DNA of 64,000 nt from Synechococcus elongatus PCC 11801 (GTDB taxonomy: Bacteria > Cyanobacteriota > Cyanobacteriia > Synechococcales > Synechococcaceae), in assembly GCF_003846445.2 (NCBI RefSeq), contig NZ_CP030139.2, positions 186,001-250,000 on the forward strand, in the 5' to 3' direction. Of this stretch, positions 35,314-44,552 are shown piece by piece (the first letter of the stretch is position 1; the number at the start of each line of letters is the position of its first letter). The notes below the pieces were generated by a model that did no database searches, had not been told where the DNA came from, and saw nothing but the letters and a program-made list of their open reading frames with translations. The position numbers were made by a program, and so were the translations under genes.

Positions 35314-38300
35314 CTAGGCGGCCTGCGATCGCAACTCTTCATAGAGGCCGGTGTTGTTGAGCAGGATGTCGCGGATGCCGTTTTGCACCTCCATGGAGTT
35401 GAGGGCTTGGCGGCTCATGCTTTGGTGGGCGTCGAAGGCACTGATGATCGCTTCTTGCAGGGCAGGGAAGAAGTCGGGCGAGATCGCGAATTGTTCTTTG
35501 CTGTTGGCTTTGGCTTGCCGAACCAATGTCGGTGATTCGAGGAGTTTGCTGCGAATTACGGTACCGACGTAGTGAACCTGATCGGCGTCGCTAACGTCGA
35601 CAAAGAGGGCGTTGAGCTTGGTGATCAGTTCGGAGAGCCAGACTTTTTGTTGATCTTGGACGATGCCGCGACCGGGTTGGAAGCCGGGGATGGCGGGAGT
35701 TTCGCCGTCGCTGAGGTTGAGGTTGCGCTGGCCCAGTTTGCGGATTTGGTGGTGGGTGAGGATGACTTTGGAGAGGTCGACGCGGCCGGATTCGCGTTCA
35801 AATTCCAACAGGGGGATGAGCCGCCGGAAGAAGAGGGCGCGTTTTTCGTAGGCGGTGTTGGCGTAGTCGAAAATCTGCGCGAGGAAGGTGTAGAAGCGGA
35901 CGTAGGTGCCGAGGTCACTGCGGAAGAGAGTGAGGGCAGCCAGTTCGTCTTTGGCAGCTTTGAGGGCAGCGGCATCGTTGCTGGCTTCGGCGTCGCGGGC
36001 GGCTTGGCGAGCGTTGCGGTACTGCGTCATCAAGCGATCGGCGACGGGTTCAAGGGCTTTCTGCAGATCGCTTTGTTTGTAGCTGGGGTCGAGCAACGCT
36101 TTGACGACGCGATCGATTTCGTATTCGTCGTAGTGATTTTGGGCGTCAAGCTTGAGTTTGAGGTCGAGGATGATGTTGGGATCGGTGGCTGAGGCTAGGT
36201 TGGCGGTGGTGTAGTAAGTCTTGAAGGCAGCCAAGATTTCAGCAGGGTCATTGGCGAAATCAACGATGTAGGTGGTGTCTTTGCCGGTATGGCAGCGGTT
36301 GAGGCGAGAGAGGGTTTGGACGGCTTGAATCCCCGCTAAGCGGCGATCGACGTACATTCCACAGAGCAAGGGCTGATCGAAGCCGGTTTGGAATTTGTTG
36401 GCGACCAGCAGGATTTGATAGTCATCGCTTTTGAAGGTTTCGCGGATATCGCCTTTGAGCTGGGGGTTGAGGCTGGGACTGCGCTCACTGAGGGCTCCAG
36501 GGCCAGATTCAGGATCGCTGACCTCGCCGCTGAAAGCAACCAAGGTGCCGAGATCGTAGTGTTTGTCGGCAATGTAGCGATCGATCGCCAATTTCCAGCG
36601 CACGGCTTCTTTGCGGGAGCCGACGACGATCATTGCTTTGGCTTTGCCCTCCAGCAGCGGTGCGACGTACTGCCGGAAGTGCTCGACCACAATTTCAACT
36701 TTCTGGGCGATGTTGTGGGGATGCAGCTTGACCCAGCCCATCAGCTTTTTGAGGGCAGTATTACGCTCCACTTCTTGATCGCTGAGGGTTTCGCCCTGTT
36801 GCGCCAGCCGGAAAGCGACTTTGTAGCTGGTGTAGTTCTGGAGAACATCAAGGATGAAGCCTTCCTCGATCGCCTGCCGCATCGAATAGACGTGAAAAGG
36901 CGCAGGCAGATTGTCGGGGCCCGCCGGTCGATTCGGATCAGGGCGAGTCCCAAATAGTTCGAGCGTCTTTGCCTTGGGCGTTGCGGTGAAAGCAACGTAG
37001 GTAATGCCGCTTTCGCGGGCGCGATCGCTCATTTGAGCAGCGAGAACGGCTTCCATATCCACGTCCCCGCCATCTTCGAGATCCGCGGCTTCGCTGGCGG
37101 AGAGAACTTGCTTGAGTTTGCTGGCAACTTCGCCAGTTTGCGAGCTGTGGGCTTCGTCGGCAATGACGGCAAAGCGTTTGCCTTGGGTGGCGGCTAATTC
37201 GCGGACGGCTTGTAGAGCAAAGGGAAAGGTCTGGATGGTGCAGACAACGACTTTTTTATCGCCCTTGAGGGCTTCGGCCAGTTGGGCACTTTTACTGCCG
37301 TCGTCGCGGGTGATGGTGGCGACGACGCCTTTGCGGCGTTCAAAGGCTTCGATCGCTTCCTGGAGTTGGGTATCGATGACGGTGCGATCGCTAACAACGA
37401 TGACGGAATCAAAGACTTTGCGGTTGTCGGCGTCGTGGAGTTCGCTGAAGAAGTGCGCGGTCCAAGCGATCGAGTTGGTTTTGCCGGAGCCTGCCGAATG
37501 CTGAATCAGGTACTTTTGGCCGGGGCCATCACGCAGAACGGCTTGTTGCAGCAGCCGCGTGGCGACGAGTTGGTGATAGCGCGGGAAGAGTAGGCGTTGG
37601 ATTTGCTGCTTCTTGTTGCGTTCGGCAATGCAGTAGCGCCCTAGAATTTCTAGCCAACTGTCCCGCTGCCAGACTTCTTGCCAGAGATAGGCGGTGCGAT
37701 GGCCGTTATCATCACCCTCGGGAACAGGATTGCCGGCACCACAATCGGCAGCGTTGGGATGGCTGCCGCGATTGAAGGGCAGGAACACGGTTTTGAAGCC
37801 TGCCAGTCGCGTGGTCATTTGCACTTCGCGATTGCTGACGGCGAAATGCACGATCGCACCATTGGGAAAGCTGAGGAGCGGTTCTGGCGATCGCCCTGCG
37901 GTTTGGGGATTGCGATCGCTTTTGTATTGATAGATTGCGTCGGCGATGTTCTGGGTGTTGTCGGTTTTGATTTCTGCGGTGGCAACTGGAATGCCGTTGA
38001 GAAACAGGACTAAATCCAAACAGTTCTGGTTGTGGACGGAGTAGCGCACCTGCCGCACTACCCGCAGACGATTGGCTTGGTAGCGAGCCAGAATTTCGGG
38101 ATTGGTGGCAAAGGCGGGTTTGAATTGGGCGAGCCGCAGCGATCCCGATAGCCCCAGCACCTCTAGGCCATTGCGCAGTAGATTCAGCGTCCCCAACAGG
38201 TCGAGCTGCTGGCGTACCCGTTTGAGCAATAGGTCTGCTGCCGCTGCCCCATGTTTTTTCTGGAGCGTCTCCCAAGCTTCGGGCTGAGTTTCCTGAATCC

Positions 38301-38436
38301 AAGCGATTAAGTCGGGCGGATAGAGTGCCAAAGCGCGATCGTAGTGGGCGGCATCGCCCGCTTCATAGAGCCAACCCTGCTGCGCGAGGTCTTCGCAAAT
38401 TTCCGCCTCAAACGCACTTTCGAGGTAGACGCTCAT
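35314..38436 (-). CDS. hsdR: Type I restriction enzyme, restriction/translocase subunit HsdR
   Basis: 1040 residues. N-terminal nuclease domain (about 100-185) with NGIPVATAEIKTDN, the D/ExK active site of the PD-(D/E)xK type. SF2 helicase/translocase motifs follow: QHSAGSGKTNSIAW (Walker A), VIADEAHSSQ (DEAH), TYVAFTATPKAKT (motif III region) and QTLSRLNR (motif VI). It works with HsdM and HsdS to cut unmodified foreign DNA. The start overlaps the hsdS stop by 4 bp. Confidence 0.95.
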   Translation of the reverse strand: MSVYLESAFEAEICEDLAQQGWLYEAGDAAHYDRALALYPPDLIAWIQETQPEAWETLQKKHGAAAADLLLKRVRQQLDLLGTLNLLRNGLEVLGLSGSLRLAQFKPAFATNPEILARYQANRLRVVRQVRYSVHNQNCLDLVLFLNGIPVATAEIKTDNTQNIADAIYQYKSDRNPQTAGRSPEPLLSFPNGAIVHFAVSNREVQMTTRLAGFKTVFLPFNRGSHPNAADCGAGNPVPEGDDNGHRTAYLWQEVWQRDSWLEILGRYCIAERNKKQQIQRLLFPRYHQLVATRLLQQAVLRDGPGQKYLIQHSAGSGKTNSIAWTAHFFSELHDADNRKVFDSVIVVSDRTVIDTQLQEAIEAFERRKGVVATITRDDGSKSAQLAEALKGDKKVVVCTIQTFPFALQAVRELAATQGKRFAVIADEAHSSQTGEVASKLKQVLSASEAADLEDGGDVDMEAVLAAQMSDRARESGITYVAFTATPKAKTLELFGTRPDPNRPAGPDNLPAPFHVYSMRQAIEEGFILDVLQNYTSYKVAFRLAQQGETLSDQEVERNTALKKLMGWVKLHPHNIAQKVEIVVEHFRQYVAPLLEGKAKAMIVVGSRKEAVRWKLAIDRYIADKHYDLGTLVAFSGEVSDPESGPGALSERSPSLNPQLKGDIRETFKSDDYQILLVANKFQTGFDQPLLCGMYVDRRLAGIQAVQTLSRLNRCHTGKDTTYIVDFANDPAEILAAFKTYYTTANLASATDPNIILDLKLKLDAQNHYDEYEIDRVVKALLDPSYKQSDLQKALEPVADRLMTQYRNARQAARDAEASNDAAALKAAKDELAALTLFRSDLGTYVRFYTFLAQIFDYANTAYEKRALFFRRLIPLLEFERESGRVDLSKVILTHHQIRKLGQRNLNLSDGETPAIPGFQPGRGIVQDQQKVWLSELITKLNALFVDVSDADQVHYVGTVIRSKLLESPTLVRQAKANSKEQFAISPDFFPALQEAIISAFDAHQSMSRQALNSMEVQNGIRDILLNNTGLYEELRSQAA

Positions 38437-39770
38437 GCCACCGCCTCCGCCAATCCCCGCACGTCAATTTGCCCTGTCACCGCCGCCGAAATCAACGCCG
38501 ATCGCCGCTCTTGCAGAAGTGAAATAACGCTCAGTGATTCCTCGGTAAGTAATTCATATTTAGATGTTCTCATTCGCAAAAATTCTGCAATCTCCTTTTG
38601 TTCATCAAAGGGCGGCTGTGCGACCGTCAGCTCTTGCAATATTGGAACACTGATATTGACTTGAGCTGTGCCCCATCCTTCTAAGCGAAAGTAGTCTTGC
38701 ACGGAAGTACTGTTGAGGAGGTAAGTGTAAAAATTGCCATCTTGGCTTGGTAATAATGTTGTTATCAACATAGTGAAGCATTGACATCCATCGAAACTTT
38801 CAGGAACTAATGCAGTCACCCCTGCATTCCCAGTTCTAACAGTTACCAGATCACCTGCTCGAATTTTTTTTGACTCGCGTTCAGATGCATATTCAGGATC
38901 AACATAGAGTATTTCTCCTTGTATTTTTCCAGCACGAATATTTGTAGATCTGAGGATTGGAATACCCTCATCGCAATATGCATGAGTTGCTGCTTCTGCA
39001 ATCCCAACAACAACTCTTGACGCACACCTTTTTAAGGGCTTGACTGACCAATGAGCGGGGACTTGGCCGAGCCACTCAACGCCAGAGTCTTTCATTGGCG
39101 CGTCTGAGTTGAGTCCTTTGGTGACGGCGTGGGAAATGACCGCTTGGCGCTTTTCTTGCAGCAGTTCAATCAGTCGCTGCTGCTCGGCAATCAGCGCATC
39201 AATTTTTTTTGTCTCGCGATCGAGGAAACAAACAATATCATGCTGATCACTCAAAGGAGGAAGTGCTAATTTAATCTTTGGAATATCATCCATGCTGATA
39301 TTCTTCTGCGTGTTAGATGTGCATAAAAGCTCGATTTGATGCTGTGACTCAATTGACTTAAGACAGTATTCGCAGAAAGCAGGAGTTATATGATCACTAC
39401 TGACTCTTATCAATGCCAGTGGAGACCAAATGCTAAATTCTAAATCTGTTTTGATCCTTGCAATTTTTCCTGTTGAAGCTGCTTTACCCATTAATATGTC
39501 ATCTTTCTGAGGCTTAGCTTTTTTGCTGTACTCTTCGTGTGCTGTATGAGATATATATCTACAGCCACTAAAAACTAATTCACCTTCTTGAATGCCATCG
39601 ACTGATAAAAATGGAACTCCTTCTTCAACAAATTCAGGAGTTGTATGAGGTCCATCTGTGATTTTTTTTGCTAACAAATTCTTGAGTCTTACCTCGTGCC
39701 AGTCCGAGGGAATTTCCCTAAGCCATTCATGATCAGCTTTTCTATAAGCTGGATACTTTGGGAAACTCAC
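38433..39770 (-). CDS. hsdS: Type I restriction enzyme specificity subunit HsdS
   Basis: 445 residues from a GTG at 39770. Two target-recognition domains (about 10-180 and 225-390) each end in a helical spacer: RETKKIDALIAEQQRLIELLQEKRQAVISHAV and the repeat-like ISLLQERRSALISAAVTGQIDV. These set the bipartite DNA target. HsdS bridges HsdM and HsdR. The recognition domains are more AT-rich than the neighbours, as expected for exchanged specificity parts. The paired hsdM lies about 2.5 kb upstream. Confidence 0.94.
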   Translation of the reverse strand: MSFPKYPAYRKADHEWLREIPSDWHEVRLKNLLAKKITDGPHTTPEFVEEGVPFLSVDGIQEGELVFSGCRYISHTAHEEYSKKAKPQKDDILMGKAASTGKIARIKTDLEFSIWSPLALIRVSSDHITPAFCEYCLKSIESQHQIELLCTSNTQKNISMDDIPKIKLALPPLSDQHDIVCFLDRETKKIDALIAEQQRLIELLQEKRQAVISHAVTKGLNSDAPMKDSGVEWLGQVPAHWSVKPLKRCASRVVVGIAEAATHAYCDEGIPILRSTNIRAGKIQGEILYVDPEYASERESKKIRAGDLVTVRTGNAGVTALVPESFDGCQCFTMLITTLLPSQDGNFYTYLLNSTSVQDYFRLEGWGTAQVNISVPILQELTVAQPPFDEQKEIAEFLRMRTSKYELLTEESLSVISLLQERRSALISAAVTGQIDVRGLAEAVA

Positions 39771-40186: not shown

Positions 40187-40516
40187 TTACTGCGGATGCG
40201 TTGCCAACCACTCCCGTAGGGCAGCATTCATCCGAGTTTGCCAGCCGGGGCCGCCTGACCGAAAGGCCTCAACAACATCGCGATCGAGCCGAATTGCAAT
40301 CTGCGTTTTAGGATTCAGACTCGGCGGTCTGCCCCGTCTTTGCTGCAATGCTGCTCGCATCAGTTCAGTGGCATCGGGGGAGTCTTCATCCGGCTCTGGG
40401 TCTGCGCCTGCTTGAACCTGCTGCCGAACCCGTTCCCAGTCACTTTCATCTTGTCCTTGGGCGATCGCATTCTGCATTTCTTCAAGCGTCATGCGGGTTC
40501 GTTTCGAGCCACTCAT
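40187..40516 (-). CDS. brnA: BrnA-family antitoxin
   Basis: 109 residues from the ATG at 40516 (MSGSKRTRMTLEEMQ). The acidic middle (GADPEPDEDSPDATE) precedes a C-terminal ribbon-helix-helix-like part: KTQIAIRLDRDVVEAFRSGGPGWQTRMNAALREWL, matching BrnA antitoxins. BrnA binds the BrnT RNase and represses its own operon. Its start lies inside the end of the brnT remnant, the normal brnT-brnA overlap. Confidence 0.85.
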   Translation of the reverse strand: MSGSKRTRMTLEEMQNAIAQGQDESDWERVRQQVQAGADPEPDEDSPDATELMRAALQQRRGRPPSLNPKTQIAIRLDRDVVEAFRSGGPGWQTRMNAALREWLATHPQ

Positions 40517-40688
40517 AATAAACCTCCCGTTCAGTCCGGCTAGCAGGACGAAAGCTAATAATTCGCGGGATCTCCCCCGGTCGATAGACAACCGTGAGCA
40601 CCGCTAAGACTTGCAAGACGTAAGCAAAGGATTGGATGCGCTGTTCCTGATTGCGTTCCGTGCAGATATCGAAGCGATAACGATCGCC
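40482..40688 (-). pseudogene. BrnT-type toxin remnant (N-terminus missing)
   Basis: An open stretch of 68 codons with the BrnT C-terminal signature VVYRPGEIPRIISFRPASRTEREVYYEWL. Immediately upstream and in the same frame is a TAG stop (40689-40691), and the N-terminal 30-40 residues of BrnT, which contain catalytic residues, are not present before it. There is no ATG start. The toxin is therefore probably dead while its antitoxin gene is intact. Confidence 0.75.
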
Positions 40689-40796
40689 CTACTTTCCCGC
40701 AGTCCCAAACAGCAACCCTAGCAACCGGCGGCGGCGCTTCCGTTGTTGCTCCTGCTCCGCATTCTTTGGCGGTTCCTTCGGCTGCATCTCGCTCAT
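40689..40796 (-). CDS. 35-residue basic ORF before the brnT remnant
   Basis: ATG at 40796, stop at 40689; begins MSEMQPKEPPKNAEQ and ends in an arginine run followed by LLGLLFGTAGK. TTAGG lies close to the ATG. It sits in frame with the brnT remnant, separated only by the TAG. It may be a small protein or a chance frame left by the event that cut brnT. I do not recognise it. Confidence 0.3.
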   Translation of the reverse strand: MSEMQPKEPPKNAEQEQQRKRRRRLLGLLFGTAGK

Positions 40797-40819: not shown

Positions 40820-41038
40820 TCAACCCTCTTGCTGACTCAGCCAAGCTTCTAAATCTTGGATGCTGGCAAAGTCCAACAAAGCATCTGATAAACCTTCGAG
40901 TTGTTCAAGAGAGAGGGCTTGCACTTGCACCAATAGATTGGGCGAAAGTTTGCCACAACGTCGAGCAAGCTGGCGAAGCACTAAGACAATGGCTTGTTCT
41001 TGTCTTCCAATTCGCTCAATGCTGGTGATGTAGGGCAT
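40820..41038 (-). CDS. stand-alone DUF4351/Rpn C-terminal module, copy 3
   Basis: 72 residues (MPYITSIERIGRQEQA). It aligns along its whole length with the last 75 residues of the Rpn-family protein at 41328-42278, ending ASIQDLEAWLSQQEG. About 20 bp before its start (TCGGCCTATAAGCAGGAGCG) nearly match the Rpn gene at the same place, so it arose by copying the 3' end of that gene. AGGAG lies six bases before the ATG. A role as inhibitor of the full-length protein is inferred from Rpn biology. Confidence 0.75.
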   Translation of the reverse strand: MPYITSIERIGRQEQAIVLVLRQLARRCGKLSPNLLVQVQALSLEQLEGLSDALLDFASIQDLEAWLSQQEG

Positions 41039-41068
41039 ACGTCGCTCCTGCTTATAGGCCGACCAACT

Positions 41069-41314
41069 CTACTCAACTGACTGCTTGTTCAGCCACGCAT
41101 CCAAATCAGCAACCGTCTTAAAATCCAACAGTGATTCACTCAGCTCCTCAACTCGTTCAAGGGTTAATCCCTGAATTTGAGCGGTTTGAGCAGGGCTTAA
41201 TGAACCCAAGCAACGGTTCAATAGACGCAGCACCACAGCAACTTCACCTTGTTGAATTCCTTGTTGAATTCCCTTTTGGAGCCCAATGCGTTCCACGCTC
41301 GTAACGTACGGCAT
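41069..41314 (-). CDS. stand-alone DUF4351/Rpn C-terminal module, copy 2
   Basis: 81 residues (MPYVTSVERIGLQKG), paralogous to the Rpn C-terminus with a small insertion: the sequence GIQQ is repeated (QKGIQQGIQQGEVAVVLR). It starts 13 bp after the Rpn stop codon, preceded by AGGAGCGTCGT, the same leader as the other two modules. Conserved IQGLTLE-VEELSESLLDF. Confidence 0.75.
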   Translation of the reverse strand: MPYVTSVERIGLQKGIQQGIQQGEVAVVLRLLNRCLGSLSPAQTAQIQGLTLERVEELSESLLDFKTVADLDAWLNKQSVE

Positions 41315-41327
41315 ACGACGCTCCTAG

Positions 41328-41555
41328 CTACTGCTGCTGGCTCAACCAAGATTCCAAGTCAGTCACTGATGCAAAATCTAATAGTGATTCACTCAACTCC
41401 TCAACTTGCTCAAGGGTTAATCCCTGAATTTGAGCGGTTTGAGCAGCGCTTAATTGGCCCAAGCGACGACTCAACTGTCGTAGCACCACAGCAACTTCTC
41501 CTTGATGAAACCCTTCCTTCCTACCAATTCGCTCAATGCTAGTGATGTAGGGCAT
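41328..41555 (-). CDS. predicted internal-start product of the Rpn gene (RpnS-like)
   Basis: In frame inside the Rpn gene, an ATG at 41555 is preceded by AGGAGCGACGT, a strong ribosome site at ideal spacing. It would give a 75-residue protein, MPYITSIERIG..., equal to the DUF4351 module. The same leader and start are conserved in the two stand-alone copies downstream, which argues that the internal start is used. Confidence 0.6.
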   Translation of the reverse strand: MPYITSIERIGRKEGFHQGEVAVVLRQLSRRLGQLSAAQTAQIQGLTLEQVEELSESLLDFASVTDLESWLSQQQ

Positions 41556-42278
41556 ACGTCGCTCCTGCTCATAGGCCGACAGCTCACTCCTGAACTCTAG
41601 CTCAAGACCTTCGGGAAGGCTCAAGAGCCAATCGATGAACTTAAAGAGGCCAACAATCCGCTCTCGGCTTAGTCCTCGCTCATACAGCAGTTTCAGTAGT
41701 TCCAGCTTCCACTGCTTGCGCAGTTGCCGATCTTGTTTCGTCTGAATCGCCCGCAAATGCGCCGCGATCGCGATCGCAAATGGATTCTCATCCTCTAGGA
41801 GCTGATCCATGCGATCGAGGTAATCCAGCAACTTAATGCTGACAAACTCACTGCGATCGCTGCTGCCCCAAAGCCCAGTCTCAAACGTGATTGGCCGCCA
41901 TGAGGGTGACTCATCCGCCAAAATCGCAACGCTGGCGATCGGCACGGCAAAGCGATCGTAAATGCGATAGCGATAGACATACATTCGCTCCGCAAAGTTA
42001 GATTCTTGCGCGCCCTGCACCTCAATGTGTACGAGTACCCAAGCCTCTTGACCCGCGATCGTCCAGACCTTGACCAGCTTGTCGGCATAGCGACGCCCCA
42101 CTTCTGCATCAGCCGTAATCTGCTGCAGTTCCTTATCCAGAAATTCGTAGCCGCGCTCCCAATCAATCTCCGGATCGGCAACAGGCAAGAAAAAACGAAT
42201 GAACTCCGGAAAGAACGCCTCAATCAGCTCCTTCCAAGGCGAATCACTCTCTGTGGGTGGCAGCGCAGAATCCGTCAT
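41328..42278 (-). CDS. Rpn-family (PD-(D/E)xK nuclease-like) protein with DUF4351
   Basis: 316 residues. The N-terminal PD-(D/E)xK-like nuclease domain (about 15-150) has EIDWERGYEFLDKEL and the VHIEVQG core (D...ExQ form of the Rpn family). A helical middle follows, then the DUF4351 module (about 242-316). Rpn proteins cut DNA and, in E. coli, are toxic antiphage proteins held by a short protein made from an internal start. The same arrangement is visible here. It lies 47 bp downstream of hsdM. Confidence 0.85.
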   Translation of the reverse strand: MTDSALPPTESDSPWKELIEAFFPEFIRFFLPVADPEIDWERGYEFLDKELQQITADAEVGRRYADKLVKVWTIAGQEAWVLVHIEVQGAQESNFAERMYVYRYRIYDRFAVPIASVAILADESPSWRPITFETGLWGSSDRSEFVSIKLLDYLDRMDQLLEDENPFAIAIAAHLRAIQTKQDRQLRKQWKLELLKLLYERGLSRERIVGLFKFIDWLLSLPEGLELEFRSELSAYEQERRMPYITSIERIGRKEGFHQGEVAVVLRQLSRRLGQLSAAQTAQIQGLTLEQVEELSESLLDFASVTDLESWLSQQQ

Positions 42279-42325
42279 TTCCTATGGCTTGCGATCGCTC
42301 TAATAGCTGTCATACCTTCCCTCCT

Positions 42326-44353
42326 TTAGTGGGAGAGTCCACCCAACATGGTCAAGATGCGATCGGTGACTTGCTGCAACTCCGCATCAATTTCCTCAAG
42401 AGGGCGCGGCGGTGTGAACATATAAAAATGTCGATTAAACGGGATTTCATAACCGACCTTGGTTTTCTCAGGGTCAATCCAAGCATCGGGCACATGTGGC
42501 AGCACCTCCCGCTGAAAATAGGTCTCCACATCTTCCGTCAGCGGTACATTCTCGGTATCCCGCAAGCTGGCATCGGCAACCAGCTGTCCCTTCGCCTTGC
42601 CACGCGTTGCCAACACAATCTTCCCTGCCTCATCCCGCTGGGGCCGCTCCACCGTAATGGTGCGATAGCCAAAATCCTCATTCCGAAAGATTTTGCTGAC
42701 CGGCTTACCCTCTTGTTCAGCCACTTCAAAATTGCCAAAGAGTTTTGTAATTGCATCGATATGCTCATCGCTTAACTCTTTCCGTTTACTGCCCAAGCTC
42801 TTGCGCATCTTCTGCCAAAAGCCACTGGCATCAATCAGCTGTACCTTGCCCTTCCGAATCTCCGGCTTCCGATTGCTCAGGATCCAGATATAGGTACTGA
42901 TGCCCGTGTTGTAGAACATATCCGTGGGTAACGCGATAATCGCCTCAACCAGATCGTTCTCAAGAACATAGCGGCGAATTTCACTTTCGCCAGAACCAGC
43001 ACCGCCCGTAAACAAGGGCGATCCATTCAAGACAATTCCTAGTCGGCTGCCGCCCTCACTCGCAGGCCGCATCTTAGAAATCAAATGCAGCAGGAATAGC
43101 AACGACCCGTCACTGACACGAGGCAAGCCAGGGCCAAAGCGGCCGCTATAACCGAGCTGCTCCGCCTCTCGCTGAACCTCTTTCTGAATCTTCTTCCATT
43201 CCACCCCAAAAGGCGGATTCGACAACATATAGTCGTATTTAGCATCTGGTAACTTGTCATCGGAGAGCGTGTTGCCAAAGCAAATGTTCTGAATATCCTG
43301 CCCCTTAATCAGCATGTCTGCTTTGCAGATTGCATAGGATTCCGGATTTAATTCCTGCCCCGACAACACCAATCGCGCTGTGGGATTTAACTCCGTCAAG
43401 TGTTCCTCCGCCACGCTGAGCATCCCGCCCGTGCCGGCCGTCGGATCGTAGAGACTCCGGACAATTCCGGCCTGAGTCAGGGCTGCATCATCTTCGATAA
43501 ACAGCAAATTCACCATCAACCGAATCACTTCGCGGGGCGTGAAGTGTTCTCCAGCCGTTTCATTCGAGAGTTCTGCAAACTTGCGAATTAACTCTTCAAA
43601 CACCAGCCCCATTTCTGCATTGCTCACCGTATCGGGATGCAGGTCAATCTGGGTAAACCGCTCCGTCACCATGTACAGCAAGCCTGCTTTCTCGAGGCGA
43701 TCGATTTGCAGGTGAAACTCAAAGCTGTCAAAAATATCCCGTACTGCCGACGTAAAGCCTCGAATATAAGCGCGGAGATTCTCACCAATATTGTCCGTGT
43801 CGCCCAGCAACTGCTTGAGATCGAGGGGCGAGGTATTGCAAAAGTTTTGCCCTGACTTTCGTAGCAAAAACGGCTCCGGTGCCAGTCCTTGACTTTCGCG
43901 TAGAGCCTTTTCTTCAAGAACCGCTGCTTTGGTCGGCGCTAGCACGCAGTCCAACCGGCGCAACACCGTAAACGGCAGGATGATTTTGCCGTAGTCACTC
44001 TGTTTGTAGTCACCCCGCAACAGGTCAGCCACACTCCAAATGAAGGCTGAAAGATTCTGTCGTCCCGTGGGTTGCGGTTCGATTGGGGTTGCTGTTTGAG
44101 AGGCTGGCGGAGAAGCGATCGCAGCTCCTTGGCTCTCCGTTAGGGTGATCGATCCTCCTCGACCCCGACCTGCTTGAATCTGCCCTTGAAGCATGAGTTC
44201 TGCTTTGATCGACTCATAGCAAGCGTCATCCCAATCCAGTAACTGTTGCAACTTGCCATTGCCTGCCGAGCCACCGAGGGTGTGGAGTGCCCCGAGAAAC
44301 TCCGCTTGGAGCGTGCTGATTTCGATCGCTGGCTGGGAGGATTCAATCGTCAT
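42326..44353 (-). CDS. hsdM: Type I DNA methyltransferase subunit HsdM
   Basis: 675 residues from the ATG at 44353. An extra N-terminal domain (about 1-90, including a winged-helix-like [21 protein letters not shown]) precedes HsdM_N (about 100-240, [20 protein letters not shown]). The N6-adenine methylase domain follows, with SAM motif [15 protein letters not shown] and catalytic NPPFGVEW. It methylates adenines in the HsdS target and protects host DNA. It is separated from hsdS by the Rpn and BrnTA genes. Confidence 0.95.
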
Positions 44354-44552
44354 AGTGAATGAAGGCAAAGTAGTGTGGGGGCTCTGCCTATGGCAGCAAG
44401 GTGATCAAGATGAATTGAAGCCTGATGTATTGTCTTTTCGCGGCTAGAGACCTTGCAACGCTATGACGATGCGCAACAGAACTACCAAGGAGAGTACACC
44501 AAGCATCTGGCGTGGCTGCTGAGGTGATGTGGCTATTCCTAAAGTCCTGCAG

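Follow-up and report, generated by a model that had tools for sequence, protein, structure and literature searches.

The locus described here raises a simple question: Why is a gene of the Rpn kind, which would already encode its own inhibitor, followed by two short genes resembling its C-terminal end, and on which proteins would these genes act? The locus is found in a stretch of 64,000 nt from Synechococcus elongatus PCC 11801 (contig NZ_CP030139.2, positions 186,001 to 250,000), which we call the window. All positions given without a genome or contig name are those of the window.

The fused gene is an open reading frame of 316 amino acids, RpnL (41328..42278, minus strand). Residues 1-241 correspond to a putative nuclease-type domain and residues 242-316 to a DUF4351 module. 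An internal reading frame, RpnS (41328..41555, minus strand, 75 aa), starts at ATG 41555 and codes for the module alone; it is defined by the conservation of its start. Its ribosome-binding leader, AGGAGCGACGT (41556..41566, minus strand), is recognized by its sequence and by a preference for GAG codons. Module 2 (41069..41314, minus strand, 81 aa) begins 13 nt after the rpn stop, with its own AGGAG at 41321-41325, and module 3 (40820..41038, minus strand, 72 aa) follows after another 30 nt. Both have AGGAGCG[T/A]CGT immediately 5' of the ATG: Like ypaA, they are separate module genes which follow an rpn gene and have a ribosome site of their own. The scores with Pfam DUF4351 (PF14261) are 74 bits for the fused module, 76 for module 2 and 81 for module 3, all above the curated cut-off of 25 bits. 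The leader repeats in the array are in direct orientation, with a size of 24–28 nt. A remnant of the parent's coding leader is found 5' of module 3 (41039..41063, minus strand), with 24 of 25 nt identical; copy 2 keeps only about 11 nt of the parental coding sequence. The initial annotation had described the coordinates, lengths and leaders of the three modules, the AGGAG before ATG 41555 and about 20 bp of parental sequence in copy 3, all of which we have confirmed. Neither a sigma-70 promoter consensus nor a terminator consensus has been found in the surroundings of the array; a cyanobacterial internal promoter is possible.

The rpn gene and both stand-alone modules are part of a type I restriction-modification operon, in which they separate hsdM from hsdS. 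The methyltransferase gene hsdM (42326..44368, minus strand; Pfam N6_Mtase and HsdM_N, PADLOC MTase_I) is directly upstream of rpn. The specificity subunit gene hsdS (38433..39770, minus strand; Pfam Methylase_S, PADLOC Specificity_I) is found downstream, followed by a 1040-aa ORF (35314-38436) which is a putative hsdR, judging from its position and length. The neighborhood of defense genes which is typical of the Rpn family is thus present, and it is also found in a plasmid relative: In an S. elongatus plasmid (L020, NZ_CP143860.1) the neighbor of the rpn gene is drmA, a DISARM gene, and a stand-alone module is present in decayed form, with its 30-nt leader still kept. Other small features are found around the array. 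A basic micro-ORF of 35 aa, MSEMQPKEPPKNAEQEQQRKRRRRLLGLLFGTAGK, follows module 3 (40689-40796, minus strand) and is also conserved in G001, the sister genome, in an equivalent position (MSQTKLDPPQSSTEQGQQRKRRRKLLGMLFGAAGK). Beyond it there is what looks like the remnant of a BrnT toxin gene, which lacks a start codon (about 40482-40688, minus strand) and is named by position and appearance; it adjoins a BrnA antitoxin gene which seems intact (about 40187-40516, minus strand).

The nuclease-type domain gives weak matches with family models. TIGR01784 matches RpnL with E 1e-6 and 29 bits, below its cut-off of 52, and Transposase_31 (E 0.003) is also below its cut-off. Residues D66, E86 and Q88 are invariant in seven aligned relatives. 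They align with the D...ExQ core of E. coli RpnC and RpnE, in a profile match which is non-significant with hhalign. The AlphaFold model of RpnL has a mean pLDDT of 77. A Foldseek search with this model gives nothing at E ≤0.001, with PD-(D/E)XK nucleases in most of the top rows. Such nucleases, including EndoMS, PaqCI, BspD6I and McrC, are the nearest structures to the model, with Z values of 5–7, which are not a proof alone. The fused module has no relative among solved structures in a sequence comparison. With moderate confidence, RpnL may be assigned to the nucleases of Rpn type.

An in-frame internal start with a ribosome-binding site at the C-terminal module, as expected for the Rpn family, is found in 97 of 97 relatives. 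This set includes 97 genes of the same N-domain subfamily, which correspond to cyanobacteria plus one Blastocatellia and one Caldilineales contig; an earlier first set contained 35 genes. The codon at the internal start is ATG in 82 of them and GTG in the other 15. All 97 internal starts are preceded by a Shine-Dalgarno match of 4 nt or more, compared with 73 of the 492 Met codons found elsewhere inside these genes; for matches of at least 5 nt the figures are 83 of 97 and 13 of 492 (p ~1e-71). Codon usage shows the same effect. The ratio of GAG to GAA among Glu codons is 59:2 at position -4 (p 1e-20) and 70:17 at position -5 (p 2e-13), compared with 785:1156 in the rest of the genes. Amino acids alone cannot account for this pattern, so the ribosome site itself has been selected, and the internal start is under selection across the subfamily. 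The conservation which the initial annotation had claimed for this start is therefore general, with ATG or GTG and a Shine-Dalgarno sequence in every member. Control by a gene within a gene would extend beyond E. coli and C. difficile to a cyanobacterial subfamily and to single members of Acidobacteriota and Chloroflexota type.

A second constraint is found further upstream. In six S. elongatus-type genes, synonymous conservation has a peak between about -78 and -18 from the internal ATG. Within this block (41573..41633, minus strand) the fraction of identical codons is 0.7–0.87, compared with about 0.5 elsewhere. It is a candidate either for a promoter of a short transcript or for a recombination anchor. 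E. coli rpn genes possess a promoter for a short transcript (PMC10327210).

Hypervariable four-residue repeats soon after the internal start are another feature of the Rpn family which is present here. In ten S. elongatus-type modules, the spacer between ERI and VLR has 10, 14, 18 or 22 residues, always in steps of four. The spacer has 14 residues in the fused module of the window, 18 in module 2 and 10 in module 3; in the G001 array the fused module has 10 and the stand-alone modules 14 and 22. In E. coli, RpnC_S with one added repeat does not inhibit RpnC_L, and inhibition is restored when the repeat is added to both (PMC10327210). Since a mismatch of one repeat abolished inhibition in the case of RpnC, we would not expect modules 2 and 3 to inhibit the neighboring RpnL, by analogy with a rule which is based on one E. 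coli protein. The suggestion in the initial annotation of one toxin with three potential inhibitors does not agree with this prediction. The same mismatch is found in tandem rpnE loci from E. coli, where the repeat number of the stand-alone copy differs from that of the fused module in 12 of the 12 loci we have fetched. We have rejected the mismatch as a statistical signal, because the observed spread of repeat numbers already accounts for it: The estimated chance of a neighbor mismatch is about 0.3 for the four S. elongatus comparisons and near certainty in E. coli. The mismatch is nevertheless relevant for function.

The same locus is found in the sister genome G001 (S. elongatus-type, 2,696,255 bp), which contains hsdM, a 66-aa ORF (L015 2531-2731), rpn and two stand-alone modules. 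Only a short remnant of the 66-aa ORF is found in the window (42276-42325, minus strand). An Rpn-type gene followed by modules which share its leader, as originally proposed, is thus an arrangement which both genomes have behind hsdM, and not a product of chance. All four chromosomal stand-alone frames, two in each genome, are intact, each with AGGAG and a start, and the arrays do not correspond one to one between both genomes. Relatives are also found on four plasmids of S. elongatus strains. Two of these plasmids have a decayed stand-alone module behind the gene: In IITB7 and UTEX 3055 it is interrupted or shortened by stops. We examined another 90 subfamily loci whose downstream sequence is long enough: 89 have no stand-alone module and one (L080) has a decayed leader copy. 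A search for leader plus module in other cyanobacteria, which the initial annotation had suggested, has thus recovered the same array in G001 and only one decayed leader among these 90 loci. In 32 other mostly complete cyanobacterial genomes inspected by eye, most of the short DUF4351 frames are tails or fragments which belong to other Rpn subfamilies. Within this N-domain subfamily, it is thus the S. elongatus group which tends to have stand-alone modules in arrays, as the other loci gave a single decayed leader copy. The modules are dispensable in many settings, because two of them have decayed in plasmids and 89 of the 90 other loci have none.

We should also note some other arrangements of these genes. 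The same Rpn N-domain is found twice more, in decayed form, in the window's genome (L017 and L018, at G000:C1:2020581-2021225 and 261865-262132), and one of these copies keeps the SAYEQERRM leader. Other cyanobacteria have tandem arrays of whole Rpn genes, with up to ten genes (G057:C1:2101532-2110057, G043:C1:1435186-1441212 and L161). In L109 (G135:C66:26000-29500) there are two tandem short DUF4351 frames of 131 and 118 aa, which share the N-terminal stretch of another Rpn subfamily and are possibly a parallel case.

Where do the stand-alone modules come from? Module 2 has 72% amino acid identity with the fused module and module 3 has 63%. Part of module 2 is nearly identical to the fused module, with a common core. 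The module tree contains three lineages. Lineage alpha includes the fused module of the window, the fused module of IITB6 plasmid 1 and module 2 of the window (support 100/99). Lineage beta includes the fused modules of G001 and UTEX 3055, module 3 of the window and modules 2 and 3 of G001 (89/91), while lineage gamma corresponds to two plasmids (99/98). G001 module 2 is nearest to the module fused in the rpn gene of the S. elongatus UTEX 3055 plasmid, with 85% identity and a spacer of equal length. The initial annotation considered both genes as diverged copies of just the fused module, duplicated twice from the rpn gene. The first description is loosely valid for copy 2 and fails for copy 3. 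A derivation from the upstream gene is found in neither case: Module 3 belongs to another lineage, and the fused module of an S. elongatus plasmid is at least as close to the window's fused module as module 2 is.

The two parts of the fused gene also have different histories. Between the window and G001, the N-domains have 92% amino acid identity with dS 0.91, and the fused modules 57% with saturated dS. Between the window and the IITB6 plasmid, the N-domains have 83% identity with saturated dS, and the fused modules 81% with dS 0.74. The N-domain tree groups the window with G001 and UTEX 3055, in conflict with the module tree. A maximum-chi breakpoint is placed 16 to 4 nt 5' of the internal ATG, with none of 2000 permutations as high. 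Comparison of the sequences thus demonstrates that the fused module in the window's lineage has been exchanged at the leader of the internal start. The simplest history would be a replacement of a fused beta module by an alpha module in the window's line, because the nearest N-domains, those of G001 and UTEX 3055, have beta modules fused. Module 3, a beta module, may then represent this displaced end, or else a stand-alone copy of older origin.

Exchange is not limited to S. elongatus. In the wider subfamily, five module types require 15 changes on the N-domain tree, with a minimum of 4; types A and B, and B and D, are perhaps remotely related (hhalign ~80%), so these changes of type include deep divergence. 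Types were set by four seed profiles, with one type assigned by eye. Clustering with phmmer --max was dropped, as the repeats joined everything. The cleanest swaps appear to be those between near-identical N-domains. In one genome, two rpn genes have N-domains with 93–100% nucleotide identity and different module cores; a third near copy has an unrelated short module, and identity collapses about 30–60 nt past the internal ATG. The three Rpn genes L129, L130 and L093 of genome G229 each have a different module, although their N-domains are near-identical or similar; this is a very recent module replacement.

The explanation towards which we lean, on the whole, is that of a gene-within-gene Rpn toxin-antitoxin unit, whose module is swapped at the internal start and which is accompanied by spare rpnS genes of other specificities. 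RpnS, which is translated from ATG 41555 and identical to the C-terminal module of RpnL, would keep RpnL inactive through a like-with-like pairing of modules which we infer from E. coli RpnA and RpnC. Because the internal ribosome site and start lie at the boundary of the module, any module which is replaced or copied would still be translatable, and free-standing rpnS genes would arise by exchange or duplication. Modules 2 and 3 would be such extra rpnS genes, with spacers of 18 and 10 residues instead of 14. They would spare their own neighbor and bind Rpn proteins with matching modules, for example those of S. elongatus plasmids; they may also act as spare ends. The guess in the initial annotation that the modules may match diverged Rpn partners is supported as a possibility by these comparisons. 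Among the roles of stand-alone modules we place protection against foreign Rpn proteins first, followed by added inhibition of the neighboring RpnL, then by a use as spare ends and finally by mere decay. A more specific proposal, which we make only tentatively, is that the leader is a fixed recombination point where Rpn toxins exchange an end which determines both specificity and inhibition, and that displaced ends form a translated, intracellular array of orphan immunity genes against the Rpn toxins of other plasmids or strains.

Other explanations should be considered. Modules 2 and 3 might merely supply more inhibitor of the neighboring RpnL, which is mainly how the initial annotation interpreted them. 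The operon, leader and start are common to all the modules, the frames are intact, module 2 has the core of the fused module, and a second RpnS behind rpnE is produced in E. coli (PMC10327210). Nevertheless, such a dosage effect appears unlikely in view of the repeat number of both spacers and the RpnC result, the different lineage of module 3 and the mismatches in tandem rpnE loci. Stand-alone modules might also be functionless remains left by recombination at the leader, whether expressed or silent, and in the process of decay. In fact, those of the IITB7 and UTEX 3055 plasmids are broken by stops, arrays differ between S. elongatus genomes, and further decayed Rpn copies are found elsewhere in the window's genome. 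On the other hand, the four chromosomal frames are intact and have kept AGGAG and the start in the absence of coding constraint. In simulations of neutral evolution, only about 10% of the frames are still open after 0.2 substitutions per site. Pairs of stand-alone modules have dN/dS of about 0.07, although much of this divergence may predate stand-alone life. We consider it improbable that they are simple leftovers.

The direct leader repeats and the breakpoints at the leader suggest still another role, a reserve of stored ends: Deletion between identical leaders would fuse a downstream module to the N-domain and switch its specificity. Single-copy rpnE genes of E. coli (Z226-5, clone D i2 and O169) bear the tail which is stand-alone in tandem strains, and fusion of the N-domain to a downstream module is mentioned in PMC10327210. 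This reserve would neither need nor explain the translation of stand-alone modules, and we have found no strain with a downstream module of the window or G001 in the fused place, which makes it quite unlikely as the main function. Finally, the whole family of DUF4351 Rpn-like proteins might have a role other than toxicity, with the short form as a structural subunit. RpnL is below the cut-offs of the models for Rpn nucleases, and cyanobacterial members have no known phenotype. We regard this as very unlikely, given the invariant catalytic-type residues, the resemblance of the model to PD-(D/E)XK nucleases and the strong conservation of the internal start and the four-residue repeats, as in E. 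coli Rpn.

If a swapped gene-within-gene unit with spare rpnS genes is the right explanation, it would account for the fast variation of Rpn C-terminal ends while toxin and antitoxin remain matched, as both are coded by the same DNA. The puzzling stand-alone DUF4351 or rpnS genes would gain a role, protection against foreign Rpn proteins. Spare modules should then inhibit the repeat-matched Rpn proteins of related plasmids, and not their own neighbor, which is a precise prediction in a model cyanobacterium that can be transformed.

Several known systems may be compared with this locus. In Rhs and other polymorphic toxins, a variable C-terminal end is also exchanged behind a conserved part, and immunity genes without a cognate effector are said to protect against the toxins of others (for example PMC10539506 and PMC3967940). 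Unlike them, the system in the window would be intracellular, with a single module acting as the end of the toxin and as its inhibitor; the likeness is an analogy, not a relationship. The rpnE-ypaA locus of E. coli K-12 is closer: The leader AAAAGGAGAGATTAATGACTATTGCTGAACGGCT is repeated, a stand-alone copy is found directly behind the gene, and its repeat number differs, with four more residues. On the other hand, there is one copy, it belongs to the same module lineage, and K-12 RpnE is annotated as inactive.

The closest system is RpnL/RpnS of E. coli, described by Zhong et al. 2023 (PMC10327210). Both have a variable C-terminal module with four-residue repeats, behind an N-domain which is probably of the nuclease type in the window, an internal Shine-Dalgarno sequence and start at the module, separate module genes and a defense setting. 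RpnS is sometimes a separate gene, annotated as DUF4351 in some species; rpnE is followed by ypaA, and rpnC by a second rpnC_S (PMC10327210). Separate rpnS genes and single second copies are thus already published and our locus belongs to that kind, so its consideration as an undescribed form in the initial annotation was too strong. This locus differs in its remote N-domain subfamily and its DUF4351 module. Four of its features do not appear in the main text of PMC10327210 and may be considered as new: two tandem stand-alone modules instead of one, the mixture of module lineages in an array, an exchange at the leader revealed by a breakpoint and by phylogenetic conflict, and the selection of the internal start in the whole subfamily.
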